64,000 nt of DNA from an uncultured Planctomycetia bacterium (GTDB taxonomy: Bacteria > Planctomycetota > Phycisphaerae > FEN-1346 > JAACEH01), in assembly GCA_903929765.1 (NCBI GenBank), contig CAIYVX010000024.1:1-64000 (forward strand), given 5' to 3'. Under the pieces are notes generated by a model. The model did not search any database and was not told the origin of the DNA. It saw only the letters and a program-made list of their open reading frames with translations. Below, piece after piece: positions 10,076 to 33,960 of the stretch; position 1 is the stretch's first letter; every line of letters begins with the position of its first letter. The position numbers and the translations under genes were made by a program.

Positions 10076-10537
10076 ATGGGAATCACATGGCGTTTGGCAG
10101 TTGTCCTTCTGGTGTGCGGAGTGACGGGTTGCGCTTCGCCCGGCTGGGTGGAGCGGCGTTACGCGGCGCCCTACGACGCGGTATTTGCGAAAGTGGCGGT
10201 TGAATGCCACAAGTGCGACATGACGTTACAGCACAGCGATCCGGGCGCCGGCCTGATCACCCTGTCCGCCTACCGCGCGGTGGACATGGCCCTGACGGGC
10301 AGTCCGATGGTCGTGGGGGATGACGTATTTGTCAAGGTGACGCGCGAGGGCCCCGAGACGACCCAAGTCTGGATCACGAGCAAGTCGCCGTGGCAGATCG
10401 GTCCGGACATAGGGCGAACCCAGAGGAACGCCGAGGAGTTGGCCAAGGTTCTGGATAGAGCCTTGACTCAGGCCGGCGGTCCCAATCGAACTGCGCCACC
10501 GCCGCCGGCACCTGCGCCCGTGGGCAAAACCCCATAG
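10076..10537 (+). CDS. Small lipoprotein of unknown function
   Basis: A 153-residue lipoprotein: a short signal peptide ending VTGCAS, with Cys19 as the predicted lipid-modified residue, then about 110 residues of mixed alpha/beta and a Pro/Ala-rich tail. No family recognised. I chose ATG 10076 because AAAGGAG precedes it and it gives a proper lipoprotein signal; the longer frame upstream lacks one. It is the first plus-strand gene of the biosynthetic cluster, 164 bp before an acyl carrier protein, so a role in envelope delivery of the product is possible. That is inference. Confidence 0.7.
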   Translation: MGITWRLAVVLLVCGVTGCASPGWVERRYAAPYDAVFAKVAVECHKCDMTLQHSDPGAGLITLSAYRAVDMALTGSPMVVGDDVFVKVTREGPETTQVWITSKSPWQIGPDIGRTQRNAEELAKVLDRALTQAGGPNRTAPPPPAPAPVGKTP

Positions 10538-10701
10538 GTGCGCCAGTGACGCTTCTGGATCGTTATTCATATCCACTGGCGAGCCATTGCGCCGTGGACT
10601 TCGCGAGTCTGTCGGCCCAACCTGTGGCACGCGGCGCCATTGAACAGGGACGGCGTTTGCTGGTCGGTCGCCGGTGATTCCGCAGATGGGAGAGACGACG
10701 C

Positions 10702-10971
10702 ATGGACGAGTTGGTCGAGCAACTCAAGAGCCACATCATCCGGGTGCTGAGGCTGGAAGATGTGCAGCCGGAAAAGATCGATCCCGAGGCGCCGCTTTTC
10801 AAACAGGGTCTGGGGCTGGATTCGATCGATGCCCTGGAGTTAATCATGATGCTGGAGCGGGAGTACGGCATTCGCATTACCAGCATCGAGGTCGGCTGGA
10901 AGGCCTTTGCCTCAGTTAAAGCTCTGGCGGGTTTTATCCGGGAGCAGCGGGATTGCCACGGCGAAAAGTAG
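10702..10971 (+). CDS. Acyl carrier protein (cluster ACP 1)
   Basis: An 89-residue ACP. The phosphopantetheine site is GLGLDSIDALEL with Ser41. The acidic recognition helix follows, and the C terminus contains the usual helix ending FIREQ. It differs from housekeeping AcpP in its basic stretches and longer tail, as expected for a specialised polyene ACP. The start follows GGGAGAG. The next gene, a ketosynthase, starts inside its last 19 nt, so the two are coupled. Confidence 0.93.
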   Translation: MDELVEQLKSHIIRVLRLEDVQPEKIDPEAPLFKQGLGLDSIDALELIMMLEREYGIRITSIEVGWKAFASVKALAGFIREQRDCHGEK

Positions 10972-12146
10972 CGATAACGGGGCTGGGTATCGTCTCGGCG
11001 CTGGGCTTGACCGTGGAAGAGACCACGGCGGCGCTCGAGGCCGGGCGCAGCGGCCTGGGTCCGTTGACGCTGTTTCCATCACAACGCCGGCAACACATTC
11101 TGGTCGGGCAGGTACCCTCGGGACTAACGGTCGAGAGAGACAGTTCTCGGAGTATGGCCCTGGCGTGTCATGCGGCGAGGGCCGCCGGCCAGGATGCCGG
11201 CCTGGCTGATGGTGCGCAGGAGCGGACTGCGGTTGTGTTGGGCGCTTGCACGGGTGGCATGCTGGAGAGCGAAGCGTTCCTGCGTGAGCTGCTGGCTGGA
11301 GGCTCGCCCGACCTGGGCCGCCTGCGGCATCATACCTGCGGCAGCGCCACCGATGGAGTCGCCGCGAGGTTGGGCCTGGGCGGCTTGCGGATGACGATAT
11401 CGGATGCGTGCGCCTCGGGCGCTTCGGCCCTGGCTGCGGCGGGCGATCTGATTGCCTGCGGCGACGCCGACGTGGTTTTCGCCGGTGGCGTCGACACACT
11501 GACGGCCCTGACCCTGAACGGATTTTGCTCGCTACTGGTCGTGGCGGATGACGGCTGCCGCCCGTTTGATGCCGAGCGCCAGGGGCTGAGCCTGGGGGAA
11601 GGCGGGGCCGTTCTGGTGCTGGAGGAGGAGCAGCACGCTCTGTCCCGCCAGGCCAGGATTCACGGCTATCTTGCGGGCTGGGGCTTTTCGTGCGATGCCA
11701 TTCACGCCACCGCGCCTGACCCGGAGGGTCGGGGCATGCAGCGAGCCATGGCCGGAGCGTTGGACGCGGCCGGACTGCGTCCTTCGGACATTGACTATAT
11801 CAATGCTCATGGCTCCGGGACCGTGGACAATGATCGTGCCGAAGCGGCGGCCATCCGGCGATTGTTTGCCGACCGTGTGCCTGCGGTATCGTCGACGAAG
11901 AGATTTTTCGGGCACACCCTGGCGGCGGCGGGGGCCATCGAGAGCGTGGTCTGCATCCTGAGTCTCGAGCGGCAGAGAGTGCCGGCCAATTTGGGTTTAC
12001 GCGAAGCGGACGCAGACCTCGGCTTTGAACCAGTGGCCACGACCCGCGCGACCCCTTGCCGGGCCGTGATGAGCAACTCGTTCGGGTTCGGAGGGGTCAA
12101 TTGCAGCTTGGTCTTTACCCAAGCCGCAGAAGGTGCAGGCCGATGA
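10953..12146 (+). CDS. Beta-ketoacyl-ACP synthase, catalytic
   Basis: A 397-residue FabF-type ketosynthase performing decarboxylative Claisen condensation of malonyl-ACP onto an acyl chain. The triad is intact: Cys153 in SDACASGAS, His286 in NAHGSGT, His321 in FFGHTLAAAG. The C-terminal SNSFGFGGVNCSLVF motif is present. TTG start at 10953 with GGGAG upstream. It overlaps the ACP before it by 19 nt and the cysteine-less ketosynthase after it by 4 nt, suggesting a KS/chain-length-factor pair as in aryl-polyene and type II polyketide systems. Confidence 0.92.
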   Translation: MPRRKVAITGLGIVSALGLTVEETTAALEAGRSGLGPLTLFPSQRRQHILVGQVPSGLTVERDSSRSMALACHAARAAGQDAGLADGAQERTAVVLGACTGGMLESEAFLRELLAGGSPDLGRLRHHTCGSATDGVAARLGLGGLRMTISDACASGASALAAAGDLIACGDADVVFAGGVDTLTALTLNGFCSLLVVADDGCRPFDAERQGLSLGEGGAVLVLEEEQHALSRQARIHGYLAGWGFSCDAIHATAPDPEGRGMQRAMAGALDAAGLRPSDIDYINAHGSGTVDNDRAEAAAIRRLFADRVPAVSSTKRFFGHTLAAAGAIESVVCILSLERQRVPANLGLREADADLGFEPVATTRATPCRAVMSNSFGFGGVNCSLVFTQAAEGAGR

Positions 12147-13285
12147 ACCCGACCGTCCCGCCAGAATTTGCCACAATAGAGGGGTTGGGCCAGGTGCGGC
12201 CAACTCTGCCGCCACAGCCGCTGGCCATGCCGACGGGCCTGGGCGGCGGAGAATGTCTGGCCTATGCCTGCCCGGCTCAGCCGCACCAGGGCTGCGTCTC
12301 ACCAGCGGTTGCCCGGAGACTGAGCCGGCTCCAACTCCTGACCCTCACGGCGGCGCACCGGGCCGTTCAGGACGGCGGCGGTCTGATCGCCGGTCCCGGC
12401 GCCGGTGTTTTTGTCGGGACGGGGCTGGGTTCGCTGGGGGCCACGGTTGAGTTTCTGGAGGATGTGATTCGTCGTGACGAGGCCAGCCCCATGCCGGCCA
12501 GGTTTATCACGTCCGTTCATAATGCGTCGGCCTCGGCCATCGCCATTGAATTTCAATGCCAGGGCGAAAACCGCACCACGACGCACGATTCGATCTCTTT
12601 CGAGTTGGCGCTCGGGCAGGCCCTGACGGCCTTGAGACTGGGCCGGATTGAACGGGCGGTCGTGGCGGCCGGCGACGAGTTGCATCCCTATCATGTGGCG
12701 GCGATGAATCACTGTCAACCGTGGCGGAAGAAGGCCGAAGCGTTGGCGCCCTTGTCCCCGACGGCGGCGCGGCTTCACGGTTCGTTGCCGGGCGAAGGCG
12801 CGGCGGCGTTTGTCCTGGGACGACCCGGCGGAAACGGTCGGCCGGAGGCTTCCGTTTGTATCCGCGGCCTGGGCCTCGCCCCGCGGCCTGCGGCGGACCT
12901 GGGCGGGATCCGCACGGAAGATGAAGTCGCGTTTCTCCAGAAGGTTCTGCACCCGGCGAACGCTACGCTGGCCGACGTCGATTTGATCCTCCTGGGGGCA
13001 GATGGCGATGCGGCGCTGGATGCCGTGTACGGTCGGGTGATCCAGGCGGTCGGAGCCGCAGCCGGAGGCGACTTGGCCGTGGGCGTCTTCAAGCACCTGT
13101 GCGGCGAATTTGCGACGGCCTCCGCGCTGGGTCTGGCCCTGGCGGGCGACGCGGTGCGCCAGGGCCGCCTGCTGCCGGACATCGCCCTGATCGCGTCCGG
13201 TCGGGCGGATAATCGGATCGATAATGTGCTTACGTACACGATTCACCGCAATGGTTTCCACAGTGCTTGCTGGGTGAGCCGATGA
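12143..13285 (+). CDS. Ketosynthase-like partner lacking the active-site Cys (chain-length-factor type)
   Basis: A 380-residue thiolase-fold protein of the beta-ketoacyl synthase family. The nucleophile-elbow region reads THDSISFELAL, where Ile151 takes the place of Cys. The catalytic-His NAHGTGT region is replaced (LLGADGDA), and the second His motif is degraded to FKHLCGEFATAS. It should not condense by itself; in APE and aromatic polyketide systems such proteins dimerise with the catalytic KS and set chain length. ATG at 12143 overlaps the upstream KS stop (ATGA), supporting 1:1 production. Confidence 0.82.
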   Translation: MNPTVPPEFATIEGLGQVRPTLPPQPLAMPTGLGGGECLAYACPAQPHQGCVSPAVARRLSRLQLLTLTAAHRAVQDGGGLIAGPGAGVFVGTGLGSLGATVEFLEDVIRRDEASPMPARFITSVHNASASAIAIEFQCQGENRTTTHDSISFELALGQALTALRLGRIERAVVAAGDELHPYHVAAMNHCQPWRKKAEALAPLSPTAARLHGSLPGEGAAAFVLGRPGGNGRPEASVCIRGLGLAPRPAADLGGIRTEDEVAFLQKVLHPANATLADVDLILLGADGDAALDAVYGRVIQAVGAAAGGDLAVGVFKHLCGEFATASALGLALAGDAVRQGRLLPDIALIASGRADNRIDNVLTYTIHRNGFHSACWVSR

Positions 13286-14082
13286 CTCGCCACCGCGCCG
13301 CCATTTTGTGTCTGATCCTGGCCTTGGCGGGCATAACCATCTTCGTCGAGGGACCATGGCGCTGGCGGCTCTATGGCCTGGCGAGCGCCGCGTATCTGGT
13401 GGTTCTAACGCTGGGCGTGTCATTGATCGGTCTGGAGTTCTTTGGTCGCGCCGTGTGCCGCGGCCCGGCGGGTAAACGGCGCGTGGCGTTGACCTTCGAC
13501 GACGGCCCGAACCCGACCGTGACGCCACAGGTCCTCAAAGCTCTGCGGCGGCTGGGCGTGCCGGCCACGTTCTTCTGCCTCGGCGAGCGGGTTCTCGATC
13601 ACCCGGACCTGGCTCGCAGCATCGTCGCCCAGGGGCACCTGATGGGCAATCATTCCCACCGCCACCAGTGGTGGCTGAATTTTCGCGGGCGGCGTTTCAT
13701 GCTCCAGGAAATCCGTTCGGCTCAGCAAGCCATCCTTTCGACCACCGGCACGGTCCCCCGCTATTACCGTCCTCCGGCAGGCTTGACGAATCCACAGGTC
13801 GGGCCGGCGGCTCGGGCGCTGGAACTTCAAGTGGTGGGTTGGACGGCCCGCGGGTTCGACCAGTTCACGGCGTCGCCTTCGGCCATTGTTCGGCGGATTG
13901 TCCGCCGCACCACGGACGGCAGCATTATCGTGTTGCACGACTGCGGCCTGCCGCCGGAACGATTGTTGGCCGTCGTTGAGGAGTTGGTGAGCACCGTGCG
14001 GCAATCCGGCCTGGAGTTCGTCAGGCTGGATCAGTTGCTGGAAGATTTGCCTGGGAAGAGCGAGCCGCCCGGTCAGCGCTGA
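13282..14082 (+). CDS. Membrane-anchored NodB-type polysaccharide deacetylase
   Basis: A 266-residue protein: two N-terminal membrane segments (about 5-22 and 30-55), then a NodB deacetylase domain. The metal site is visible as TFDDGPNP (catalytic and metal Asp) and NHSHRHQ (His-x3-His), with YYRPPAG and IIVLHDCG near the end. This family removes N- or O-acetyl groups from sugars in the periplasm. In this cluster it may trim an acetylated glycan or sugar on the lipid product, which is inference. ATGA overlap with the preceding gene. Its 3' end overlaps the convergent ketosynthase-like gene by 10 bp. Confidence 0.85.
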   Translation: MTRHRAAILCLILALAGITIFVEGPWRWRLYGLASAAYLVVLTLGVSLIGLEFFGRAVCRGPAGKRRVALTFDDGPNPTVTPQVLKALRRLGVPATFFCLGERVLDHPDLARSIVAQGHLMGNHSHRHQWWLNFRGRRFMLQEIRSAQQAILSTTGTVPRYYRPPAGLTNPQVGPAARALELQVVGWTARGFDQFTASPSAIVRRIVRRTTDGSIIVLHDCGLPPERLLAVVEELVSTVRQSGLEFVRLDQLLEDLPGKSEPPGQR

Positions 14083-14981
14083 TTTGCTTCCCGGCAGATG
14101 GCCAGGGTTTCGCCTGTTCCCCGCAACCCGGGCAATTCCAAGCGAGCAGCCGCTTCGCCGTCCGCCAAAGTGCGGCAGAGCATTTCTAGAGCACTTAATG
14201 TTTGGATGGACTCACCAAGAACACACTTTGCCCGGCGATACGGCTCGCCGGGACAAAGTGTGGCACCCCCGTGAGAACAGCCAATCGTGAACTGCTCTAG
14301 TGACGACATTTCTCCGGCGCCAGCCGCGCTGCTTTTCACCACGGACACGTTAGCCAGGACGGATCGTTCTGCCGGCGGCGCGGCTTCGAGCAGAAAAGCG
14401 CAAGCATAGCCGGCGACGCGGTCGGTCGCGGCAGCGCCGAGGGCGGCGCGGCGGTACAAGTCAGGCACCGCATCGGCCACCACACAGAGCACAGCCCGGG
14501 CCTCTCGTTGGATCAGCAGGCGAACGGCCTCCTGTAACGGTGAAAGCTCGTCGCCGGGTGGGCACAACAGGCACAGACTCGGGCCGGTCAGTTGGTGACG
14601 TATGGAGATTTCTCCGATGGCGGCGCTCGGCAGGGTGTAGGAGAAGACGGTGGGGCTGGGCCCGGCAGCGGAGTTGGCGCCGGCCAGGAACTCGCAGTCC
14701 GCTGCCAGCGAGCCGTGAGCCGTGCCCAGGCAGAGGGCGGCTCCGGCGGCCTCGGCCGGGGAAAGAGGCTGAACCTGGAGGGCCAGTTCTGCGGCGGCGA
14801 CGGCGTATTGCGAGAGCAGGTCCAGGCGACCGAACCGCTCGAAGGGGGCGGCGCTGAACCACGACCAGCGGAGCGGTCCGTCCGGCGAGCGTTCGCCGGG
14901 CCAGGCCGTCCGCGATTGCGGGTTGGCGAACCCCGTGTCGTCGAGCCGACTCCAGGCCGTCAGGAAGCAGAGATCATTCAT
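14073..14981 (-). CDS. Second ketosynthase-like (CLF-type) protein with an in-frame repeat insertion
   Basis: A 302-residue protein like the short chain-length-factor partners in aryl-polyene clusters (N-terminal ketosynthase-like fold only). The would-be nucleophile region reads GPSLCLLCPPGDELSPL; the Cys residues are out of register with a KS active site, and no catalytic His motifs follow. Residues about 228-266 are encoded by a 115-bp inverted-repeat element (14186-14300), so without it the protein would be about 264 residues, near the usual size. Translation is coupled to the catalytic KS upstream (8-bp overlap). Whether the C-terminal 35 residues are in the ancestral frame is unknown; 115 is not a multiple of three. 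Confidence 0.7.
   Translation of the reverse strand: MNDLCFLTAWSRLDDTGFANPQSRTAWPGERSPDGPLRWSWFSAAPFERFGRLDLLSQYAVAAAELALQVQPLSPAEAAGAALCLGTAHGSLAADCEFLAGANSAAGPSPTVFSYTLPSAAIGEISIRHQLTGPSLCLLCPPGDELSPLQEAVRLLIQREARAVLCVVADAVPDLYRRAALGAAATDRVAGYACAFLLEAAPPAERSVLANVSVVKSSAAGAGEMSSLEQFTIGCSHGGATLCPGEPYRRAKCVLGESIQTLSALEMLCRTLADGEAAARLELPGLRGTGETLAICREANQR
14186..14300. repeat. 115-bp palindromic, MITE-like element inside a gene
   Basis: Terminal inverted repeats CTAGAGCA (14186-14193) and TGCTCTAG (14293-14300) bound the element. The core is a long hairpin: CACACTTTG (14222-14230) pairs with CAAAGTGTG (14254-14262), and CCCGGCGA pairs with TCGCCGGG inside it. Flanking CTCAC/GTGAG also pair. 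The CACACTTTG...CAAAGTGTGGCACCC core recurs at 54408-54457 with a different inner stem. Confidence 0.85.
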
Positions 14982-16137
14982 GGTTTGCCCTGCTCAGGAT
15001 CATGGCCGCATTGATACCGCCAAAGCCGCACTTGATGGTCACGACGTGGTTCACGCCCGGCGCCGGTTGATGCCCGGTCAGGAGGCGAATCGGCTTGGAG
15101 ACGCCGAGGTTCTCGAAACCGAGCGAGGCGGGGAGAACGCCGTGACGCAAGACCTCGGTGCAGAGGATGGCTTCGGCGACGCCGGCGGCCCCGAGGGTGT
15201 GGCCAATGTAGCCCTTCAGCGACGAGACGGGCGGGCTGTCGGCAAAGACGGAGTAAATGGCCAGCGACTCGGTTTCATCGTTGTAAACCGTGCCCGTGCC
15301 GTGAGCGTTAATGTAGCCGATATCCTGCGGCGCCAGGCGAGCCGCGCTCAGGCTCTTCTGGAGAGCCTGGGTCAGGGCCAGTCCGGTTCTGGAGGGTGCG
15401 GTGATATGGGTGGCGTCATTCGTGACGGCCCAGCCTCGGATCGTGGCCAGAGCGGTGGGCCATGGTCCGCGCCGCAGGACAATAGCGGCGGCGCTTTCCC
15501 CGAGGGATAGTCCATCGCGAAGTTTGTCGAACGGGCGACAGGGCCGGGCGCTGAGCGCGGCCAGAGAGGAGAACCCGGCCAGGACAAAGCGGGAGAGAAT
15601 ATCGACGCCAATGACGAGCATGGTCTCGCACGAGCCGCTCGTCAAAAGCCGCGCCGCCTGGGCGATGGCGACCAGACCGGAGGCACAAGCGTTGGAGGTC
15701 GCCAGGACGGGTCCGCCCAGGCCGAGATCGGTGGCGAGGTCGCGGGCCAGGCGGGCCGGGAGGAAGTGCGACCGGGCCGCCGGGCCAGGTGCGACGAGTT
15801 GTCGCTCCAAGTCATCAATGCCGGCCTTGGTTGTGGCCAGGACCAGTCCGGTGCGTGACGCGAGCAAGGGTCCTGCCTGGGCCAGGGCCCGGCGGCCGAC
15901 GCGCCGGGTGAGGGCGTAGGCGGGCGAACAATCTGCGGGCAGGCCGGGCGCGGGCGCGCCACTCCCGCGCAGCCAGGGAATCTCGGCGGCCACATAGGTT
16001 CGCCCATCGCCCTGGGCCAGGGACTTTAAGGGCCGCAGGCCGCAGGCGCCGGACATTATGGCGTTCCAGGTCGCGGCGGGATCATCGCCGAGGGCCGTGA
16101 CCAGGTCGGCAGCGCAGATGGTCCAGTAGTCACCCAT
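14974..16137 (-). CDS. Beta-ketoacyl-ACP synthase, catalytic
   Basis: A 387-residue FabF-type ketosynthase with an intact triad: Cys151 in SNACASGL, His in INAHGTGT, and His in GYIGHTLGAAG. The end CGFGGINAAMIL is canonical. The start is ATG 16137, which shares one base with the stop of the dehydratase before it (TGATG). It is followed by a coupled cysteine-less partner, giving a second KS/CLF-like pair in the cluster. Confidence 0.92.
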   Translation of the reverse strand: MGDYWTICAADLVTALGDDPAATWNAIMSGACGLRPLKSLAQGDGRTYVAAEIPWLRGSGAPAPGLPADCSPAYALTRRVGRRALAQAGPLLASRTGLVLATTKAGIDDLERQLVAPGPAARSHFLPARLARDLATDLGLGGPVLATSNACASGLVAIAQAARLLTSGSCETMLVIGVDILSRFVLAGFSSLAALSARPCRPFDKLRDGLSLGESAAAIVLRRGPWPTALATIRGWAVTNDATHITAPSRTGLALTQALQKSLSAARLAPQDIGYINAHGTGTVYNDETESLAIYSVFADSPPVSSLKGYIGHTLGAAGVAEAILCTEVLRHGVLPASLGFENLGVSKPIRLLTGHQPAPGVNHVVTIKCGFGGINAAMILSRANHE

Positions 16138-16604
16138 CAAGGTCTGGTCCTTGCGGTCGGCGAAACCGCCTGGTCGTTATCCTCACCACTCTGAATGAAC
16201 ACTTTGAACTGTCCCTCCGCCAGAAGCTGACTCCCGGCCTGAACGCGACCGGCGATGATGCAAAAAGGTCCGACCCGGTTGAGCACCTGGACGCACAAGG
16301 TCAGCGGCTGGTCGACCACGGCGGCGGCGACGAAGCTAAAGTTGTCGAGGCCCACCAACATGCCGCGGGCTGGCGGCAGGCGCCGCTGGCGGGCAAGATA
16401 ACCCTGCATGGCGGCCGTGGTTTGGGCCAGACATTCGATGAGCAGGCTTTCGGGCACGGCGCCATCGACAACGCCGTAATCGCCGCTGCAGAAAGTTTTC
16501 ACCGCTTCGGCCCGATCTTCGCCGCAGGCGGTTAAGCGGTCGATCAGAATCATCGGCGGCCGATGCGGAATCAGATCTTGAACAGCAATGTCAATTTCGG
16601 ACAT
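16137..16604 (-). CDS. 3-hydroxyacyl-ACP dehydratase, FabZ/ApeP-like hotdog
   Basis: A 155-residue hotdog-fold dehydratase that removes water from 3-hydroxyacyl-ACP to give the trans-enoyl chain. It begins with the FabZ-type catalytic His in LIPHRPPMILID, and the second half-site is the ESLLIECLAQTTA helix with its acidic residue. Repeated condensation, reduction and dehydration without enoyl reduction would give a conjugated polyene, consistent with the absence of an enoyl reductase in the cluster. It lies 17 nt after the radical SAM gene. Confidence 0.85.
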   Translation of the reverse strand: MSEIDIAVQDLIPHRPPMILIDRLTACGEDRAEAVKTFCSGDYGVVDGAVPESLLIECLAQTTAAMQGYLARQRRLPPARGMLVGLDNFSFVAAAVVDQPLTLCVQVLNRVGPFCIIAGRVQAGSQLLAEGQFKVFIQSGEDNDQAVSPTARTRP

Positions 16605-16621
16605 GGCCTTACCGCCTTATT

Positions 16622-19037: not shown

Positions 19038-20011
19038 GGAGGGCCTTCTTTCCGAGCGGCGTCGGCCCAGAAGTCGTAGAAGTTGTGCCATTGCAAAGGA
19101 TACGCCCGCACGACTTGCTCCAATTGCGTCGCAAAGTCCTGAGTCCATTGCTGCACCAGGGGGCCGCGATCCTCGTGGCCGGCGAAAGAGAGTTGCCGTG
19201 GCGGACAGGCGAGCAGACGATAGCGATAGGTTCCTTCGCGCAGGGCGAAGGCATGAATCAGCGGGGCGCCGCTGATGGCGGCCACGATATAAGGCCCGGT
19301 GGGCAAGCGCACGGCGGCATTGAGGAATTGGCAATAGACGCCATTGGGTCCCAGGCAGCGATCACCGTGCATGGCTACAATTTCGCCGCGGCGCAGGGCG
19401 GCCATGATGGCGATGCTACTGTCCGGGCCGCCGTCGGCACTGATGACGGAGAACTGTCGGCCCTGGAAGGCCCGGTCGAACAGTTGGCGAAGGCGCCGCC
19501 GTTCGCCCTCGTACGCGACGATGTTCACGGGCACGCGATGCTTGAAGATGATGTGCGAGGCGGCTTCCCAGTTGCCGATGTGAGCCGAAACGAGCACCAA
19601 CCCCCGTTTCTGGCTCAGGGCGGCGACGAGATGTTCCTCGCCCTCGAACTGAAAGTGGAATCCGCGTCCCTGGCGACCGATGATCGCCAGCCGATCCAGC
19701 AGCATCTGGCCAAAACAGAAAAAATGGCGGTAAGCGTCCCAGAGTCGCCTCAGGCGTGAGCGGCTCCAGTAGCCGACCCGCTGACGCCAGAGGGCGGAGG
19801 CCTTTACCGCCTTGGGGGCGGCAAAAAGAAAGTAAAAGGCCACGGGAATCAGAAGGGCGTAGGCACAGCGCAGCCCGAAAAGCCGGACGACGGTAATGAA
19901 GATCCAGTTGCCGACGAGGCCTCCGCGCGTACGACCGTTCCAGGCGGCTTCGGTGGGGGAAGCCGTTCCATTCGTGGGCGGGGCGGAGTCAGTGTCCCTC
20001 TGGGTTCGCAT
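19034..20011 (-). CDS. LpxL/HtrB-type lysophospholipid acyltransferase
   Basis: About 325 residues, one N-terminal membrane segment (FITVVRLFGLRCAYALL region) and an LpxL/HtrB-like acyltransferase domain. The catalytic HxxxxE motif is visible as HIGNWE, and the MHGDRCLG region follows. This family moves acyl groups from ACP to a lipid acceptor at the inner membrane; aryl-polyene clusters contain such a gene, probably for loading the polyene onto a membrane lipid. The start is uncertain: ATG 20011 overlaps the ACP gene by 23 bp, and ATG 20050 is also in frame. Confidence 0.82.
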   Translation of the reverse strand: MRTQRDTDSAPPTNGTASPTEAAWNGRTRGGLVGNWIFITVVRLFGLRCAYALLIPVAFYFLFAAPKAVKASALWRQRVGYWSRSRLRRLWDAYRHFFCFGQMLLDRLAIIGRQGRGFHFQFEGEEHLVAALSQKRGLVLVSAHIGNWEAASHIIFKHRVPVNIVAYEGERRRLRQLFDRAFQGRQFSVISADGGPDSSIAIMAALRRGEIVAMHGDRCLGPNGVYCQFLNAAVRLPTGPYIVAAISGAPLIHAFALREGTYRYRLLACPPRQLSFAGHEDRGPLVQQWTQDFATQLEQVVRAYPLQWHNFYDFWADAARKEGPP

Positions 20012-26800: not shown

Positions 26801-27708
26801 GCGATGACGGAAACGAGCGACCCGATAAACGGCGGCAGAAAGATTAAGACCACCAGCCACTTCCTGCGGAAGAAGAGCAGTCCCAGCACGGCGATGCCGA
26901 TGAGCGTGGCGGTGGTCGTCCGCGAGATATCGCCCCGGATCGTCCGGGCGTTGTCCAGGGCCGCCCGGTGGCCGCTGACATAACTGATCTGCACGGCTCC
27001 GGACGGCGGCGCGACGCGGTCGACGGCCTGGCCCATCAGGCTCACCAGTTGCTCGCCGCGGGCCGTGTCGGTGCCGGGGAACTTCGGCGTAGCAATCATG
27101 AGCACATGCCGGCCGTCTTCGGTCGAGATGCGGCCATTGATCATCGTGACTCCGCGGGCGATCGGCGAAAGGGCTTCGAGCTTGGCGGCAAACAAGCCAT
27201 TGGTGCCCAGCGGATCGCGGCGCACTTGCTCCTGAACCAAAGGGTCGAATGGTTCCGAGAGAGCCTGCTTCGCCTCGGCCAGGCGCTGCCCGACGCGCTC
27301 GGGTTCGGCGGCCTCGGCAATCTGACGGAGATCCTCAGCGGAAAAAAGACAGGGTTTCCAGAGCGGCAACCGTTGGGCCAGTGAAAACATCCGGTCTTCG
27401 GAGAAGCGATAGGTCACCCGCTCAAACAGGTTGGAGGCCAGCAATAGCTCATAAAGCTGGTCCGCCGCCCGGACCACCTGCTCGCCGGCCTCGGGCGAGC
27501 CATCCTTAACGCCGATGTCGATGAAGACCGCGTCCAGGGCGCGAAAGTTGTCAATGACCAACCGATAGTCGCTGACCACCGGATCGTGGTCGGGCAGCAG
27601 CGACGTGACGTCCTCGTCGAGGCGCAACTGCCGAAAGAAAAGGCCGCCCGCCGCCACCAGGGCCACGGTCACGGTAACGGCCAGGATCCGTTTCGCCTTG
27701 CTGTTCAT
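23863..27708 (-). CDS. MMPL exporter fused to PlsC acyltransferase and SAM methyltransferase
   Basis: A 1281-residue three-part protein. Residues 1 to about 860 are an MMPL/RND-type exporter: first membrane helix at 7-25, a periplasmic loop, NAVDYGIM and GTGIDYSII in the two helical halves. About 860-1060 is a PlsC/LPLAT acyltransferase with HLAVAD (H-x4-D, His901) and FPEGTRS. About 1065-1281 is a class I methyltransferase with VLDAGCGYG near 1110. It should load, methylate and export the lipid product at the inner membrane. ATG 27708 is chosen because it overlaps the GT2 stop (ATGA); longer starts run into that gene. Fusions of this kind are known in APE-type clusters. Confidence 0.87.
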   Translation of the reverse strand: MNSKAKRILAVTVTVALVAAGGLFFRQLRLDEDVTSLLPDHDPVVSDYRLVIDNFRALDAVFIDIGVKDGSPEAGEQVVRAADQLYELLLASNLFERVTYRFSEDRMFSLAQRLPLWKPCLFSAEDLRQIAEAAEPERVGQRLAEAKQALSEPFDPLVQEQVRRDPLGTNGLFAAKLEALSPIARGVTMINGRISTEDGRHVLMIATPKFPGTDTARGEQLVSLMGQAVDRVAPPSGAVQISYVSGHRAALDNARTIRGDISRTTTATLIGIAVLGLLFFRRKWLVVLIFLPPFIGSLVSVIAFGLVNPVVSAVTVGCGAALIGNAVDYGIMVLYGLDGQNLALGQAASFIRLLYRPLAAASLTTIGALLCLGLSSLPGQRQMGLYGAIGVMGTVLYALFVLPALLSPKPHGSGRPLVALDELCRKILRWRERRGRTIWVVAVLVVLVCLAGLFRLRFDGDVTRLNHLSRATQADQERFESVWGGQPSVSAVVRGRTLEEALQANDRLAATLQGLRRDKTISRYSSVAPLLPSRKTQLENVARWQQFWTPPRLEQVRDTLTQEGRRLKFSPQAFAPFLADLQAAATPFGRPDLEALGLDDMVSGYIASGNSGYMVMTIIYMEEPAALPAVQDGLRSTGAFVLSRPAFVQHVVGLVRNEVVLLGASAGAVVLLLLWLLYGRPDIMVAVFLPVVLAVVVTLGSLGLAGVPLNMMSCLFIVFVLGTGIDYSIILMSQRLNLHWGLGGTMANALGAVLLAALTTMLGFAAMILAAHPALFSLGLAGTIGIGASLLAAVVVVPSAADFLLSDRGRDRVVSLRSLIAGLLVFSYLYLAGCVYLLAIRWLLRLRYRGRPDQRQRATRNFIRAVFLVIHKTYPSLRSRRLVRGLTPETFRQPAVIVANHLAVADIFMLLCLPGDMVLAVAKWVWDVRILGPVLRDAGYILLAGDDVDHFLQQGTACLNQGVSVMVFPEGTRSPDGQIHRFRKGAFELAARTGADILPVLLTNTAEWTPRRGLGLHEHCCLLRVLPRLTRQDFDYTLGAKALADHVRRLLLERQPRDWRLVGRSGTFRSGVRSLYRHAGPYVECYLAGKLRFDAIFRHIDGWVPRTGVVLDAGCGYGLMSNFLARKSPARQVIGLDFCPQRIAIAQRTSGPDGNPSFLLADLRSDPWPAADAVLLIDVLHYWTLEQQRQIIRQACASLRSGGRLVFRDGCNSQGSDRRLIHWSERLARFLGHSPAGEGLFFQDKTFYVEEFARYHVRLVQPVSEIGRSYNLTLLFEKDGG

Positions 27709-28898
27709 GTCCGGCGAGTTCTCCCGGAGATCTTCATGGCCGCGAAGACTAGCGCGGCCGTAACAGCGCCGGCGAAAACCGCCAACACGACACTGCCCAC
27801 GAGATAATCTGTGGCCCAGGCCCAGGCGTTGGACGGCGTGAGTTGGAATTGGAACAACTTTGGCAGCGGCGACCGGCCCAACAGCCATCCTCCGGTGACC
27901 AGACTGGCATAGAGAATGACCGGCAACATCGCCGGAAAGGAAATGTTCGAGGCGGCCAACACCAGGGGCTTGTTCAGTCTTAGCCAGTGGGCGGCACAGA
28001 GGCCGGCCAGCATCTGGAAGCCCCAGATCGGCAGGATGCCGAAGGTGACGCCCAGCCCGACGGCGACCGAGAGCCTGCCCGGCGTGGCCGCCTCGCCGCT
28101 AAACGTCTGCTTAAGCAGAGCGTGCAATCGTCCAGGCAGAGACAACCGGGCAAAGGTCTGGCGAAAAATGACCGCACAGACCGCCGGCGGCAGAAGAAGG
28201 CGCAAGGCGAGCAAGCGGGCATTGAGCTGGCTCACCAGGGCGAAGTCGCGCAGCGGTCGAAAGTGTGAACCGCTGCCGGGCCCCCAGGTGACGCGCTGCG
28301 GAATCGTGACGACTGGAGTTCCGGCCCAGAGGGCCTTGACCAGCACTTCGATCTCAAAGTCATACTTGCGGCACTTGAATGTCAAGGCGTTGATGGGTGC
28401 GAGGGGGTAGGCCCGGAAGCCCGTCTGCGAATCGGCCGTGCGCACGCCCGTTTCGAGCCAGACCCAGAAGTTGGAGTGAGCTCGCAGCAGCCGGCTCTTC
28501 ATTGGTCGCCGGCCAGGGGCCGCCAGTTGGCGCACGCCGAGAACCAGAGCCTCCGGCCGGTCATGGATGGTTCTAAGGAACGCCGGAAGATCAGCGGCGG
28601 TATGTTGGCCATCGCCATCCATAGTTATGACATGCGTGAAGCCCAGGTCTGCGGCCCGGTCAAAGCCGCTCTGGAGGGCCGCGCCTTTGCCCCGGTTATG
28701 GTCGTGCCGCACGAGAGTGATGCTCTCGGTCGCCTTCAGGATCTCCTGCGTCCCATCGGTGGAGCCGTCATCCACGACCATGACCTGGTCCAGGAAGCGG
28801 CGAATCTCGGCAATGACCCCGGCGATGGTGGCCACGTTGTTGTAAACCGGAACCAGAACGCAGGGCCTGACGGCAGAATCGGGCGCGGGGTCACGCAT
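27705..28898 (-). CDS. GT2 glycosyltransferase fused to DUF2062 membrane domain
   Basis: About 397 residues. The first 230 are a family 2 glycosyltransferase of the dolichol-phosphate-mannose-synthase type: VLVPVYNN, VVDDGSTDGT, and MDGDGQH as the DXD-like metal site. The rest is a DUF2062 domain with several membrane segments, including GVTFGILPIWG. This architecture is common next to APE clusters and would glycosylate the product or a carrier lipid. ATG 28898 has AGGAG 11 nt upstream and overlaps the ligase by 8 bp; a GTG 12 nt further upstream is an alternative. Confidence 0.85.
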   Translation of the reverse strand: MRDPAPDSAVRPCVLVPVYNNVATIAGVIAEIRRFLDQVMVVDDGSTDGTQEILKATESITLVRHDHNRGKGAALQSGFDRAADLGFTHVITMDGDGQHTAADLPAFLRTIHDRPEALVLGVRQLAAPGRRPMKSRLLRAHSNFWVWLETGVRTADSQTGFRAYPLAPINALTFKCRKYDFEIEVLVKALWAGTPVVTIPQRVTWGPGSGSHFRPLRDFALVSQLNARLLALRLLLPPAVCAVIFRQTFARLSLPGRLHALLKQTFSGEAATPGRLSVAVGLGVTFGILPIWGFQMLAGLCAAHWLRLNKPLVLAASNISFPAMLPVILYASLVTGGWLLGRSPLPKLFQFQLTPSNAWAWATDYLVGSVVLAVFAGAVTAALVFAAMKISGRTRRT

Positions 28899-30153
28899 GT
28901 GCCGGACCACTCCTGCGGTCGATGAACAGCCGCTTTTTGCGATAGTTCTGCGTGTCGCGCACGGCCTCGATTTCCTGCGCCGTGCCGAGACGAATCGTGG
29001 GCAAGACCTTCAAGTCGCCGCGCAGCCGTTCACGGAGCAGGTCCAGATTGATCGCTTCGTCCGCTTCCAGGAGAATTTCCAGCTCATCCGAAAGAGGCGA
29101 ACTGCTGGTGGCCACGAGAACATAATCCCGGAGGCCGCCGAAGCCGTCCAACGTCTTCTGGATCGCCGAGGGAAAGAGCTTGACGCCCTTGATCTTGAGC
29201 ATCTGGTTCTTCCGAAAGAGGATGGGGCCGAGGCGCGGCGTAGCCAGGCCGCAGGTGCACGGCTCTTCGATCAGGAAAGAGCAGTCGCCGGTCCGGTAGC
29301 GCAGCAAGGGCAGGGCCTCGACGCCGAAGGTGGTGATCACGATCTCGCCCACCTGGCCCGGCGCGACCGGTTGGCCCAGGTCGTCCAGGATCTCGACGTA
29401 ATGAGCCTCGGGACAGAGGTGTCCCCCGCGGCCCGCGTCGCACTCACAGAGCGAACTGGCCAGTTCGGTGGCGGCATAGGTCGAATAGAGCCGCGCGCCC
29501 CAGGCGTCGTGAATCATTCGCCCGAGCGGGGTCAGTTGAAAATCAGCTTCGCGGAGCGGTTCGCCGATGCAGATCAATTTTTTGACGGTTGAGTGGTTCA
29601 GTTCGAGGCCTTGTCCGGACGCGTACTCGGCCACTCTCTTGAGAAAGGAGGGCACCGAGATGATCGCGGTCGCCGATAATTGCCGCATCAGGCTCAACAA
29701 CATCGCCGGCGAACCCGAACCGACCCGGACCGCCGTTGCGCCCAGGGCCTTCAGCCCTTCAAAATAGGCCAAACCGGCCATGAAACAGCGGTCCAGGGTC
29801 ACGGCCAAAAGAACGGTATCATTTCTGGTCAAGCCGGCGAGTTGAAAGGAAAACCGTTCGCTCCGGCCCAGGCGGGCAATGTCGTTGGCGGTCAGGGGGT
29901 AGGGCAGGGGCAGGCCGGTCGTGCCACTGGTGGTGACGATGTCCACCACCTCGGCCTGCGGGACGCACCACATCCCGGCGCCCTGCTCGGCCAGGTCGTG
30001 CCTGGTGGTTAAGGGCAACCGCCGGAAGTCCAGGGCGGTGTTGATTTCGGCGGGAGAGAGTCCCAGGCCGTCAAGCCGAGCACGGTAGAAGGGACTGTGC
30101 TCATAGGCATAGCGGACCGCGCAAGAAAGAGAGGCGTCCAGAGCAGATGACAT
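28891..30153 (-). CDS. PaaK-like AMP-dependent aryl/acyl ligase
   Basis: About 420 residues of the phenylacetate-CoA-ligase branch of adenylating enzymes. The signature TTSGTTGLPLPY gives the P-loop, YAATE the adenine site, and LLRYRTGD the hinge region; the end contains DTQNYRKKR with a C-terminal Lys. In an aryl polyene pathway such a ligase would activate the aromatic starter acid for loading on ACP. The substrate is not readable from sequence. It is the first gene of the 16-kb minus-strand operon. ATG 30153 lacks a good Shine-Dalgarno; a start further upstream would run into the promoter. Confidence 0.82.
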   Translation of the reverse strand: MSSALDASLSCAVRYAYEHSPFYRARLDGLGLSPAEINTALDFRRLPLTTRHDLAEQGAGMWCVPQAEVVDIVTTSGTTGLPLPYPLTANDIARLGRSERFSFQLAGLTRNDTVLLAVTLDRCFMAGLAYFEGLKALGATAVRVGSGSPAMLLSLMRQLSATAIISVPSFLKRVAEYASGQGLELNHSTVKKLICIGEPLREADFQLTPLGRMIHDAWGARLYSTYAATELASSLCECDAGRGGHLCPEAHYVEILDDLGQPVAPGQVGEIVITTFGVEALPLLRYRTGDCSFLIEEPCTCGLATPRLGPILFRKNQMLKIKGVKLFPSAIQKTLDGFGGLRDYVLVATSSSPLSDELEILLEADEAINLDLLRERLRGDLKVLPTIRLGTAQEIEAVRDTQNYRKKRLFIDRRSGPAHA

Positions 30154-30208
30154 GGCATCGCACTTAAGGCTTGTGTTTGATGGCGGTTCAGAATACCTTA
30201 ACGCGGAT

Positions 30209-30238
30209 AGTATAGAAATCATTCCCGGAGGCGTACAA
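30209..30238 (-). promoter_or_regulatory. Candidate promoter of the minus-strand operon
   Basis: On the minus strand, a good -10 TATACT (30214-30209) with a weak -35 TTGTAC (30238-30233) at 18 bp. It lies about 55 bp before the ligase start. The -10 is convincing, the -35 is not. Confidence 0.45.
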
Positions 30239-30293
30239 GCTAAATGTGCGGCCCGCGGCGACCACGGCTGGACAATCCGGCCGGGTCGCCTCC

Positions 30294-30322
30294 TTGACCC
30301 GCTTTGGGCCGGCCTCTATAGT
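30294..30322 (+). promoter_or_regulatory. Candidate sigma-70-like promoter of the phosphatase-like gene
   Basis: TTGACC (30294-30299), 17 bp, TATAGT (30317-30322). Start of transcription would be near 30329, about 20 nt before the GTG at 30350, leaving room for the GGGAGGA site. Confidence 0.6.
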
Positions 30323-30349
30323 AATCAGTTCGTATGGGAGGACAACCGC

Positions 30350-31822
30350 GTGCGCTATTCGGCAACTATCGCGATCTGGCTGATCCTGACTGGGTGCCTG
30401 ACCGGCTGTGGGCCGGAGGGGTTGCGGCTCCGACCGGTCGATTCGCCTTCGTGTTCCGAGGCTTTCAAGAGCTTTGACACGCACGGTGACGGCCGGGCCG
30501 ATTTCTTTCTGTTGGCGAACGCCGCGGGGCGAGTCGATCGGATCGGTTACGACGTCAGCGGCGCCGGCAAACCGGACGTGGTCATCGGACTCGACGACCT
30601 TCGTGAGGATCAGTGCCGGCATCTCGTCATCATCCTGGACGGCTTCGGTTACGACGTGGTTAGAAAATACTATGACGATGGCGGGCTGCGGTTTTGCCAT
30701 GTGCCGTCGAAGGTGATTGCGACCTATCCGACGATGACCGACTTGTGTCTGGCCGACGCCCTGCGGGTGGCGCCGTGTCCGGCCCTCCAAGCCAGATATT
30801 ATGATTTTAAGACTAACGATTCCACCGGCGGCGCTCTGGCTTATCTGGCCTCGACCAATGAACCCTATAATCGTGTTCTGGGCTATCGCGCCGAAAAAAG
30901 TCAGGACGGCCTGGCCTTCCTACAGGGCTGGCCCGTCTTCCAAACTGACCTGCGGGATCTGATGCGGGCCTTCAACAAGAGCCCGTCTCATGAAATCATC
31001 GGCTATCTGGTCAGTTCGGCGGCGATCAGCACCAGGGATGGCGCGGCCGGGCAACGCAAGTGCCTGGAACAGGTTGATTTGGCTGTGGCCCAAATCCTCT
31101 GGCAGACCCATGGACTGGTTAAGGTGACCATCTTTGCCGATCATGGCCATGGTTACAAGCCGCCCATCATGGTGGACTTCGAGACGCTGCTGAAGGCCAG
31201 GGGCTGGCATTTCACGGACCATCTGCATGAGGCTAGGGACGTGAGCTTCGTGCCCATGGGCGTGGTGACTGAGGCGTCGTTCAACGCGCGCCGGCCGGCC
31301 CTGCTGGCCGCCGACCTGGCGGAGTGCTCAGGTGTGGAGTTGGCCAGCTTCGTCGAGGGCGACCAGGTGGTCGTCCTGTCTCACGATCATGGGCGGGCCA
31401 CGATCCGGAAGATCGGCCGGGGCTACACCTACCAGGCCGCCGCGGGTGATCCGCTGCAACTGCACGAAGCTTTGGCGGGCCTGACCGCCGACGCCCAGGG
31501 CGCTTATGATGCGGACCAGGTCTTGAAAGCCACGGTCAACAGCGCTTACCCCGCGGCGCCGGAACGGCTCTGGCGAGCCCACTTCGGCCTGGTCGAAAAC
31601 CCGGGGAACGTGCTGGTCTCGTTGCAGGATGATCGCTGCTCGGGCCTGAACGTGTTCAAGGATCTTGTGGCGATCGCCTCGACCCACGGCAGCCTCAACC
31701 GCATCAACAGCACCACCTTCATCATGTCCACGCTCGGGCCCTTGCCCCCGGTCATGCGCTCCCGCGACATTCCTGCCAACATGACGCAACTGCTGGGCGT
31801 CCGGTGGCCGGAAACCAGGTGA
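30350..31822 (+). CDS. Alkaline-phosphatase-superfamily lipoprotein
   Basis: A 490-residue lipoprotein: a signal ending LTGCLTGC, then repeated DTHGDGRADF and DVSGAGKPDV Ca-binding-like loops (about 35-75). An alkaline-phosphatase-fold domain follows. Metal sites are seen as IILDGFG (first Asp), TYPTMTD as the Thr nucleophile region, FADHGHG and LSHDHG. Likely hydrolyses a phospho- or sulfo-ester outside the cytoplasm, or transfers a phosphoryl group; the substrate is unknown. GTG start with GGGAGGA. Divergent from the main operon and convergent with the next dehydratase; unusual for APE clusters. Confidence 0.75.
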   Translation: MRYSATIAIWLILTGCLTGCGPEGLRLRPVDSPSCSEAFKSFDTHGDGRADFFLLANAAGRVDRIGYDVSGAGKPDVVIGLDDLREDQCRHLVIILDGFGYDVVRKYYDDGGLRFCHVPSKVIATYPTMTDLCLADALRVAPCPALQARYYDFKTNDSTGGALAYLASTNEPYNRVLGYRAEKSQDGLAFLQGWPVFQTDLRDLMRAFNKSPSHEIIGYLVSSAAISTRDGAAGQRKCLEQVDLAVAQILWQTHGLVKVTIFADHGHGYKPPIMVDFETLLKARGWHFTDHLHEARDVSFVPMGVVTEASFNARRPALLAADLAECSGVELASFVEGDQVVVLSHDHGRATIRKIGRGYTYQAAAGDPLQLHEALAGLTADAQGAYDADQVLKATVNSAYPAAPERLWRAHFGLVENPGNVLVSLQDDRCSGLNVFKDLVAIASTHGSLNRINSTTFIMSTLGPLPPVMRSRDIPANMTQLLGVRWPETR

Positions 31823-31894: not shown

Positions 31895-32254
31895 TCATAC
31901 CGCCACCAGCAGGATCAGTTTCGCCACAGGAAGACCGTCCACCAGAAGAGTCGCCCGCACTTCCTGCCGGCCTTCGACGTCGGCAACCACCGCCTCGAGT
32001 GTGAGCAAGTCACCGGGAACCACCGGCTTCAGAAACTTGGCCTTTCGAACCGCCACCAAGCGGCAGGGGCGGCCGAGGACCGCTGCAAAAGCCACCAGGG
32101 TCAGTTCGATCTGGAAGACGCCGGGCAGCAGGGGCTGCCCGGGAAAGTGCCCGCGGAAGACGGCCTGGTCGGGACGAAACCGGAACGTTGCCAGCAGGCG
32201 GTTGCCATCGCGGCTTGGGGTTTTCTCCAGGGCGTCAAGAATGTCTTGTCGCAT
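31895..32254 (-). CDS. Small hotdog 3-hydroxyacyl-ACP dehydratase-like protein
   Basis: A 119-residue hotdog protein related to FabA/FabZ with FRGHFPGQPLLPGV, containing the FabZ catalytic-loop His. This is the ApeI-like second dehydratase of aryl-polyene clusters and may act as the partner of the larger dehydratase at 16137. The next gene upstream ends 1 nt before its ATG, so it is the last gene of a three-gene minus-strand unit (LolA-like, DUF3261, dehydratase). Confidence 0.8.
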   Translation of the reverse strand: MRQDILDALEKTPSRDGNRLLATFRFRPDQAVFRGHFPGQPLLPGVFQIELTLVAFAAVLGRPCRLVAVRKAKFLKPVVPGDLLTLEAVVADVEGRQEVRATLLVDGLPVAKLILLVAV

Positions 32255-32255
32255 G

Positions 32256-32993
32256 TCAGGATCCTGTGGCGGGAGAAGGGCCTCGGTTCGCCGTTACGCT
32301 TAACTTGACCAAATGCACATTCAGCGTGTAGCCGTACTCGTAGTCCGCCACCGTCAAGTCGAGCGGGACCGGTCGGGCCCAGCCGGCCAGGAGTTGGTAA
32401 TCGCCGAAATCGATTTGATAGCGCATGCGGCCGTCCTTGGCGCGAACATAGTGACGAAGCTGCCGGGTCTCGCGGTCGAACTGAAATTCCACAATTTCGC
32501 CGTCCGGTCGGCAGGAGACCAAGCCCACGCCGCCATCACGGTGCAGCCACAAGGTTGCGCCCTTTTCCGGCGCCGCTAGATAGACCGTAGCGGCATCGCG
32601 CCAAGCGCAGTTAATGAGTACCGCATCACTCCAACCCGATGAATTCCTGGATACCACCGGCGCACTCAACGCCTGCTGCGTCACCTCGAAGATGGTATTG
32701 CCGAAATCGGAAAGGGCCACAAGGCTCAGTTGATCAGGCCGGCCGGCCAACACATAGCTCGTAAAGGCGACCTGGTCCCCGCGAGTCAGGATGACGCGGT
32801 GCGTGGCGTGAAACGTTGCAGGATACATCTCCACCCGGCTCTGGCGAAGACTCTCCAGCAGGCCCTCGTTCACCAGAGGCCGGCCGGCATCGTAAGGGAC
32901 TTGGCCACACCCCGCAAGCACCGCACAGAGGCCTGACGCAAAAATGGCCGGCAGTCGCCCGAGCCACTGGGATCGGATTAGAAGAGCAGACAT
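32256..32993 (-). CDS. DUF3261-type outer-membrane lipoprotein
   Basis: A 245-residue lipoprotein with signal ending AVLAGCGQ and lipid-modified Cys about residue 29. The rest is a beta-rich lipid-carrier-like domain matching the DUF3261 (ApeN-like) class. In APE systems this protein works with a LolA-like carrier and the MMPL exporter to place the lipid in the outer membrane. ATG 32993 is chosen because it gives the signal peptide; the longer frame upstream does not look like protein. Confidence 0.75.
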   Translation of the reverse strand: MSALLIRSQWLGRLPAIFASGLCAVLAGCGQVPYDAGRPLVNEGLLESLRQSRVEMYPATFHATHRVILTRGDQVAFTSYVLAGRPDQLSLVALSDFGNTIFEVTQQALSAPVVSRNSSGWSDAVLINCAWRDAATVYLAAPEKGATLWLHRDGGVGLVSCRPDGEIVEFQFDRETRQLRHYVRAKDGRMRYQIDFGDYQLLAGWARPVPLDLTVADYEYGYTLNVHLVKLSVTANRGPSPATGS

Positions 32994-33054
32994 GCGAAAC
33001 CCCGACTTTCTGGCGGCCAATTGCCGACACGCCCCGGCTGCTTCGCTCAACCAG

Positions 33055-33960
33055 TTATTCCGCCCGCCTGGCGGAAGCAGCCGCCTGTCCCGACCGCAGG
33101 TTGGCGGCAGCATGGTCGCTGGATGGCGCGGTGGCGGCCGGAGTTGAGAAAAGCAACTTGAGGTCGGCCGGACTGGCGGCCGTAAGGTCAAAAGCTTCTT
33201 TGGGCAACACCAGGCCGCGCTGTTCGGCCACGAAGTTCATAATGCTGTAATCTCCGTTGGCCTCGCGCAGCGTCAGCGACGAAAAGCGCGTTCTGTCCTG
33301 GCTCAGTTCCAAGTCGATTTCGGCGATCACCTTGAGCATAGCTTCGTTTCGCGGAACCAGCTTCACGGTCAGGCCCGTGCCCTCCAGAATGGAAATATCA
33401 TACACGGCATTCCGGCCGCCGAAATCACCTTGTAGCCATAAGGCAATTTGATTCATCACGGCCAGGATGCCCCCGCGGCCGGGAGTTTCGAGCTTTTTCC
33501 ATTGGCCGGCCGGCTTTTCGTATTTGGCCACACTCTGGCCATTGGCGATGACCACCGACTGGAAGGGTTCGCAGATCTCAAAGCGGATATTATTCGGGAA
33601 CTGGAAGAGGCAGCGGCCGCTGGTCTGAATAACCTCCTCCAGGATGGCTCGATGGGTTTCCTGTTTGAACTCAACGCTGGCCGACCGAATGCCGCCCATG
33701 TTCTGGTGCAGTTGCTTAAGAAACTCGGCCGTCTCCTGGTCGTCCAGAGTGCGCGTGGGTTTTACCGGAGCAGGCGGCACAAGGGCCGGCGGCGCTGTTG
33801 GCGTGCCGGCCGAGGGAGCGCTGGTCGCGGAGGTCGCGCCGGCTGAGGAGGTGGCCGACTCCGGTACTGTTCCCGGCCCGGCCTGAGCGCTTACGGACAG
33901 GCCAGGCGTAAAGAGAAGAAGCGCTGACGCCGCCAGCAGGGCGACCACGACGTGGTTCAT
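33055..33960 (-). CDS. LolA-like outer-membrane lipid carrier protein
   Basis: A 301-residue secreted protein: signal peptide ending SVSAQA, a long Pro/Ser/Ala/Thr-rich linker (about 28-70), then a LolA/LolB-type carrier domain with QETHRAILEE, NNIRFEICEP and related strands. It corresponds to the ApeL-type periplasmic carrier, moving the product between membranes. ATG 33960 with AGGGAAG upstream. The gene lies 61 bp before the DUF3261 gene on the same strand. Confidence 0.8.
   Translation of the reverse strand: MNHVVVALLAASALLLFTPGLSVSAQAGPGTVPESATSSAGATSATSAPSAGTPTAPPALVPPAPVKPTRTLDDQETAEFLKQLHQNMGGIRSASVEFKQETHRAILEEVIQTSGRCLFQFPNNIRFEICEPFQSVVIANGQSVAKYEKPAGQWKKLETPGRGGILAVMNQIALWLQGDFGGRNAVYDISILEGTGLTVKLVPRNEAMLKVIAEIDLELSQDRTRFSSLTLREANGDYSIMNFVAEQRGLVLPKEAFDLTAASPADLKLLFSTPAATAPSSDHAAANLRSGQAAASARRAE

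Follow-up and report, generated by a model that had tools for sequence, protein, structure and literature searches.

Gene content of the cluster

We analysed 64,000 nt of DNA (hereafter the window) from an uncultured Planctomycetia bacterium, one of the contigs (CAIYVX010000024.1, positions 1 to 64,000) of a 3.83-Mb draft genome that is 96% complete (GCA_903929765.1), and found between about 10.7 and 34.1 kb a gene cluster that probably directs the synthesis of a flexirubin-type aryl polyene. Parts were called by Pfam and NCBIfam scans of the window proteins; as several starts in the open reading frame (ORF) list lay too far upstream, probable starts were reset from homologues and frame overlaps. 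The plus strand (10.7–14.1 kb) encodes an NF006617-type acyl carrier protein (ACP1, 10702–10971; PF00550 46.7 bits, NF006617 74.6 bits for a cut-off of 70), the NF006618/PRK09185-type ketosynthase KSa (10953–12146; sequence matches to 6qsp_A and 9s5h_B), the ketosynthase-family protein KSb (12143–13285; likely start 12143, in an ORF that opens at 12056) and a polysaccharide deacetylase (PDA, 13267–14082; PF01522 111.9 bits).

The minus strand, read from about 34.1 to 14.1 kb, begins with a LolA-like lipid carrier (33055–34089; PF03548 45.9 bits), a DUF3261-like putative lipoprotein with a possible LolB-like role (32256–33191), the ApeI-like dehydratase 2 (DH2, 31895–32254; PF22818 41.5 bits against 28.5) and a FlxY-type aryl-acid ligase (28891–30222), for which FlxY is by far the best family (NF053551 422.8 bits, next family 190) at a score under the curated cut-off of 520. 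These are followed by a family 2 glycosyltransferase (GT2) fused to DUF2062 (27705–28910; PF00535, PF09835), a fusion of an MMPL exporter, a PlsC acyltransferase and a class-I S-adenosylmethionine (SAM) methyltransferase (23863–27708, likely start 27708; Pfam matches), a CrtD/CrtI-like flavin adenine dinucleotide-dependent oxidoreductase (22376–23866; PF01593), the PRK09116-type ketosynthase KSe (21159–22379; 413 bits, cut-off 470) and a FabG/FlxB-like ketoreductase (KR, 20392–21129; top match NF053542 FlxB, 315 bits for a cut-off of 340). Next come ACP2 (19989–20330, likely start 20264; PF00550 35.9 bits), an LpxL-type acyltransferase (19034–20125, N-terminal start uncertain; PF03279 75.4 bits), a radical SAM/SPASM enzyme (17976–19037; PF04055 and PF13186; its ORF reaches 19334 and the conserved part starts at about 19037), a B12-binding radical SAM enzyme (16622–17974), dehydratase 1 (DH1, 16137–16604), the NF006618/PRK09185-type ketosynthase KSd (14974–16140) and its truncated partner KSc (14073–14981; Pfam match). 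The catalytic cysteine and the second catalytic histidine are kept in KSa, KSd and KSe and missing in KSb and KSc, which therefore look like chain-length factors paired with KSa and KSd, respectively.

All of the parts listed in the initial annotation were recovered (two ACPs, five ketosynthase-family ORFs, KR, PaaK-like ligase, MMPL, LolA, GT2, LpxL- and PlsC-type acyltransferases, both radical SAM enzymes and the phytoene-desaturase-like, here CrtD/CrtI-like, flavoprotein), with two assignments standing only in part: DH1 is present but its likeness to FabZ (40.1 bits, under cut-off) and ApeP (16.9 bits) is weak, and the DUF3261 match (16.2 bits) falls under the Pfam cut-off of 22.3 although homologous proteins occur in the related clusters of the planctomycete genome G011, of G284 and of Elusimicrobia. 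Overlooked at that stage were the deacetylase, the methyltransferase domain behind MMPL-PlsC, the DUF2062 domain on GT2 and an ORF of 556 aa at 30152–31822, which lies on the plus strand, opposite to the operon, between the ligase and DH2. By eye this ORF is alkaline-phosphatase-superfamily-like, but it matched nothing in Pfam, NCBIfam or PDB and had no homologue among the related clusters compared, and was for that reason left out of the system. The cluster thus combines ketosynthase/chain-length-factor pairs, KR, dehydratases and ACPs, with no enoyl reductase, as in an aryl-polyene core, and MMPL, LolA, acyltransferases and a glycosyltransferase as for export to and anchoring in the envelope.

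Flexirubin-type architecture and its distribution

In Bacteroidota, 21 of 248 sampled genomes were FlxY-bearing; 40 kb was read at most of these loci, and 15 intact ones were scored with the window proteins as queries. About 20 of 22 cluster modules, including the phytoene-desaturase-like flavoprotein, are found in these flexirubin clusters in conserved local order (lyase-KR-KSe-ACP2-LpxL-...-KSd-KSc-ACP1-KSa-KSb-PDA-LolA-DH2-GT2-DUF2062-MMPL-PlsC-CrtD-like-FlxY, some loci showing small gaps). KR, KSe, LpxL, KSd, KSc, ACP1, KSa, KSb, PDA, DH2, GT2, MMPL and FlxY are present in 15/15, as is the ammonia-lyase; the CrtD-like gene is in 13/15, and neither the SPASM nor the B12 radical SAM enzyme is in any (0/15 each). 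This order is consistent with the published flx cluster of Chitinophaga pinensis, where tyrosine ammonia-lyase is encoded as FlxA and 4-coumarate-CoA ligase as FlxY, and which also has five ketosynthases, PDA, LolA, a glycosyltransferase and an exporter (PMC3992019).

When loci of relatives of the B12 enzyme were scored in the same manner, the closest full gene order to the window was that of G011 and Elusimicrobia, with Bacteroidales and Flammeovirga very similar. The Bacteroidales and Flammeovirga genomes have FlxY above the curated cut-off, an ammonia-lyase at the operon end and the B12 radical SAM enzyme as well. G284 has nearly the same cluster as the window, with SPASM and FlxY and with no CrtD-like gene seen there; the G011 and Elusimicrobia clusters have neither FlxY nor SPASM and keep the remaining genes. 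Recurrence of much the same order in Planctomycetota, Elusimicrobia and Bacteroidota places the gene set far beyond chance, and the aryl-polyene assignment made initially is thereby borne out and sharpened to flexirubin-type; we regard the aryl-polyene core of the pathway as highly probable.

The initial annotation had also taken the desaturase-like and radical SAM genes as a hint of ladderane synthesis. In our tree, the CrtD-like protein of the window falls together with its G011 and Elusimicrobia counterparts next to the flexirubin clade of Bacteroidota, and the anammox homologue is distant and of another subfamily. With a desaturase-like gene in most flexirubin clusters, this gene is not a ladderane hint, and the idea that a desaturase and a radical SAM enzyme beside fatty-acid genes form a rare trait was rejected, the combination being common.

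The B12-binding enzyme scores above the cut-off of TIGR04072 ('rSAM_ladder_B12'; 389.6 bits for a cut-off of 360), has the motif CPQACSYC and lies beside fatty-acid genes. At least 563 stretches in named genomes were confirmed to encode relatives, and the best 80 of these come from Desulfobacterota, Myxococcota, Bacteroidota, Elusimicrobia, Verrucomicrobiota, Fibrobacterota, Spirochaetes and Ferrimonas. Its slot lies between LpxL and DH1 in Bacteroidales, Flammeovirga, G011 and Elusimicrobia; in the window the SPASM gene stands between LpxL and the B12 gene. In its tree the window protein branches with the G011, G144 and Elusimicrobia enzymes (SH-aLRT 92) and away from the anammox sequences, so that the radical SAM phylogeny, too, speaks against a ladderane affinity. 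The B12 radical SAM enzyme is an accessory of flexirubin-type clusters that is widespread in anaerobes. In one flexirubin cluster (G596) a methyltransferase occupies the B12 slot; the B12 enzyme as a simple stand-in for a methyltransferase was nevertheless rejected, since the methyltransferase family occurs anywhere in only four Bacteroidota loci, which leaves no pattern with the slot. Separately, four loci of cultivable Ferrimonas have a TIGR04072-like enzyme beside ketosynthase, KR and dehydratase genes.

The SPASM enzyme and the missing ammonia-lyase

Known flexirubin systems start from 4-coumarate, the aromatic acid made by tyrosine ammonia-lyase. No PF00221 match was found anywhere in the 96%-complete host genome, so that FlxA in the strict sense is absent; the lack of a lyase, already remarked on at the outset, turned out to be more informative than any other clue.

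The SPASM enzyme is rare, occurring in 7 of 294 planctomycete genomes and also in Goldiibacteriota-type and Desulfatitalea-type genomes. Its nearest relatives are in G284 (62% identity) and G093, with the anammox proteins next (50% identity to the Kuenenia-type protein). In the G284 frame (L140, C11:96116-97456), the extended match contains one in-frame TGA, an error or a start artefact.

Among genomes with a FlxY-type ligase of more than 400 bits, all seven with SPASM (the host, G284, G093, G088, G168, G258 and G297) have no PF00221 lyase anywhere, and all ten without SPASM (G219, G298–G303, G305, G309 and G310) have one, inside the cluster in five cases (G299, G300, G302, G303 and G309) and on contigs too short to tell in two (G219 and G305). 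In the 294 planctomycete genomes FlxY was found in seven, SPASM in seven and both in six (hypergeometric 6e-11, ignoring kinship). In the FlxY tree, the genes of the host, G284, G093 and G297 fall with their G219 and G305 counterparts and not with anammox, so that a single FlxY clade shows the swap; across the tree, the SPASM/lyase state changed at least three times by parsimony. With only two to three independent switches behind it, the mutual exclusion of SPASM and lyase among FlxY-bearing genomes is suggestive, not proven. Together with the loci that have neither FlxY nor SPASM (G011 and Elusimicrobia), this pattern suggests that SPASM belongs to the starter branch, and on such distribution we tentatively propose, at somewhat less than even odds, that it makes or supplies the aryl starter acid.

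The Kuenenia locus and ladderanes

Genome G088 has a locus in which gene order agrees with published listings of kuste3352 to kuste3335 (PMC2649909, PMC4790861); its ligase is FlxY-type (422.5 bits) and adjoins the SPASM and TIGR04072 enzymes. This Kuenenia locus is itself flexirubin-like. Of the resemblance to a proposed ladderane locus that had been noted for the window, the common elements stand (SPASM at 50% identity, a FlxY-type ligase, a B12 radical SAM enzyme), but they probably do not lead to ladderanes.

Family f49, which lies in the phylum of the host (Planctomycetota, judging by the confinement of anammox to it) but not in its class, is represented by 15 genomes, one per species, of which 13 have hydrazine synthase (HZS); we searched these for SPASM, FlxY and TIGR04072, rather than for the rest of the locus, with thresholds of our own setting. 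SPASM, FlxY and a TIGR04072 match of more than 400 bits occur in only 3/13 HZS-bearing genomes (G088, G168 and G258), and they are lacking in G195, an HZS-positive genome that is 100% complete and shares its genus with G088. Ladderane production was reported for all anammox genera examined, as Rattray 2008 is cited in PMC12758564, and with the trio in so few genomes a locus of the kuste3335-3352 type is unlikely to be the ladderane route. This fits the analysis of Liao et al., who inferred a gain at the origin of anammox for only kuste2805, 3603 and 3605-3606 of the 34 candidates (PMC9387917). Expression of the 34 candidate genes in E. coli gave no ladderanes (PMC4790861). Citations of the proposed cobalamin 'ladderane synthase' continue in 2026 (PMC13142503).

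Ladderane or other ring-fused lipid synthesis in the window, with radical SAM enzymes cyclising a polyene as proposed for Kuenenia, could draw on the TIGR04072 score and on the adjacency of SPASM, ligase and B12 enzyme in the Kuenenia-type locus, but we consider it very improbable, given that the host genome has no match to hydrazine synthase (PF18582), that the locus type is missing from 10/13 anammox genomes and was not among the inferred gains, that no ladderanes were seen in Desulfotalea despite its syntenic cluster (PMC2649909), and that the CrtD-like and B12 genes group with flexirubin-type relatives rather than with anammox. The proposed hybrid with ladderane loci was rejected on this phylogeny and distribution.

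Proposed pathway and alternatives

We favour an anaerobic-type, flexirubin-like aryl-polyene cluster to which a TIGR04072 enzyme has been added and in which an unusual SPASM enzyme stands in place of the ammonia-lyase (probability roughly 0.6). Gene content, order, homology, the missing lyase and the SPASM/lyase exclusion within the sample are observations, whereas the reactions, the compound formed and what the two radical SAM enzymes do are inferred. In such a pathway the SPASM enzyme would make or supply the aryl starter acid, which the FlxY-type ligase would activate; the two ketosynthase/chain-length-factor pairs, the third ketosynthase, KR and the two dehydratases, with no enoyl reductase, would extend it on the ACPs to a conjugated polyene. 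Tailoring of the chain or ring may then fall to the methyltransferase domain, the CrtD-like flavoprotein and the B12 radical SAM enzyme, the acyltransferases and GT2-DUF2062 may attach the polyene to a lipid or sugar, and MMPL, LolA and the LolB-like lipoprotein would carry the product to the outer membrane.

Several points weigh against this pathway. The FlxY (422.8 against 520 bits) and FlxB (315 against 340 bits) scores lie under the NCBIfam curated cut-offs, and no thioesterase or dialkylresorcinol genes (darA/darB) were seen in the cluster, the genome not having been searched for darA/darB. On the FlxY tree the swap yields no more than two or three independent pairs, and with so few the exclusion cannot be significant. 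Absence of a lyase is not rare in anaerobes (it is also missing in G296 and G308), and G296, G312 and, with a distant form, G050 have SPASM but no strong match to FlxY. Finally, the structure model of the SPASM enzyme is of moderate confidence (mean predicted local distance difference test score 69.8); it matches SPASM enzymes, and its nearest families and folds (AhbD, NirJ, PqqE, SkfB, BlsE) are varied radical SAM enzymes acting on peptides and small molecules, so that the fold does not reveal the substrate.

The same occurrence of SPASM with no strong FlxY in G296 and G312 would agree with SPASM tailoring the polyene or head group, the starter being a free aryl acid that central metabolism provides, for example 4-hydroxybenzoate. 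The E. coli aryl-polyene pathway indeed draws 4-hydroxybenzoate from UbiC with no cluster gene (PMC8253772), and in the window SPASM sits between LpxL and the B12 enzyme, away from FlxY. We nevertheless think this unlikely, as SPASM tracks FlxY and excludes the lyase in our sample, and adjoins FlxY in anammox. An alkyl polyene or polyunsaturated hydrocarbon precursor with no aryl group, as suggested for Desulfotalea, which has a syntenic cluster and makes such hydrocarbons (C31:8/C31:9; PMC2649909), would suit the related FlxY-free clusters of G011 and Elusimicrobia, but is improbable here, where the ligase groups with other FlxY-type enzymes and export genes of the aryl-polyene type are present.

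A bolder extension of the flexirubin-type reading is that SPASM represents a new, lyase-independent radical route to aryl starters in anaerobes, exchanged with tyrosine ammonia-lyase more than once, and that kuste3335-3352 is such a pathway, with the ladderane genes elsewhere; this we hold to be possible but rather doubtful. If true, it would provide a radical SAM family that is so far uncharacterised with a function open to testing, explain aryl-polyene initiation in anaerobes without an ammonia-lyase, and turn the main cited ladderane candidate locus into a patchily distributed flexirubin-like cluster, narrowing the hunt for the true ladderane genes. Clusters of this general sort outside anammox were noted before (PMC9902471, PMC2649909). 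In the literature searched we found no paper connecting flexirubin gene clusters with radical SAM, and none joining flexirubin architecture, SPASM/lyase exclusion and the Kuenenia locus.

Neighbouring and other genes

Genes for a PEP-CTERM protein and for a beta-helix protein that carries a divergent InlB-type repeat flank the cluster at 8488–9507 and 34534–37011 (minus strand). At 42397–45284 (minus strand) lies another PaaK-like AMP ligase (121.8 bits to FlxY), beside a class-III aminotransferase and an M20 peptidase. Elsewhere in the host genome, an open frame of 2619 aa resembles a type I polyketide synthase and includes a ketosynthase domain (locus L003, C1:66282-67145), and a further ketosynthase pair is at 13–15 kb of contig C50.

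Comparison with known systems

With the flx clusters of Chitinophaga pinensis and Flavobacterium johnsoniae the window shares KR, five ketosynthase-family genes, two dehydratases, ACPs, PDA, acyltransferases, LolA, a glycosyltransferase, MMPL, a FlxY-type ligase and a CrtD-like gene in similar local order; it differs in a genome without FlxA, in the added B12 radical SAM, SPASM and DUF3261-like genes, and in having no dialkylresorcinol or thioesterase genes seen in the cluster. Common with apeA-R of E. coli CFT073 and Xenorhabdus are the ketosynthase/chain-length-factor pair, KR, ApeI-like dehydratase, ligase, acyltransferases, glycosyltransferase, MMPL, LolA, DUF3261 and methyltransferase; PDA, the CrtD-like protein and the two radical SAM enzymes are extra in the window, which lacks the ApeK thioesterase. 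By description only, the locus may also be set beside the clusters that antiSMASH labels 'ladderane' outside anammox, which occur in Desulfobacterota, Fibrobacterota, Planctomycetota and further groups (PMC9902471); it would possibly receive the same label. The Kuenenia stuttgartiensis locus kuste3335-3352 (Rattray 2009) has in common with the window the SPASM enzyme, the FlxY-type ligase, TIGR04072, ketosynthases, KR, a glycosyltransferase, MMPL, a phytoene-desaturase-like protein and a polysaccharide deacetylase, while most other proteins are only 21–43% identical, the CrtD-like protein is of another subfamily, and gene order and host (non-anammox in the case of the window) differ. This comparison suggests that the ladderane proposal for the anammox locus should be re-examined.

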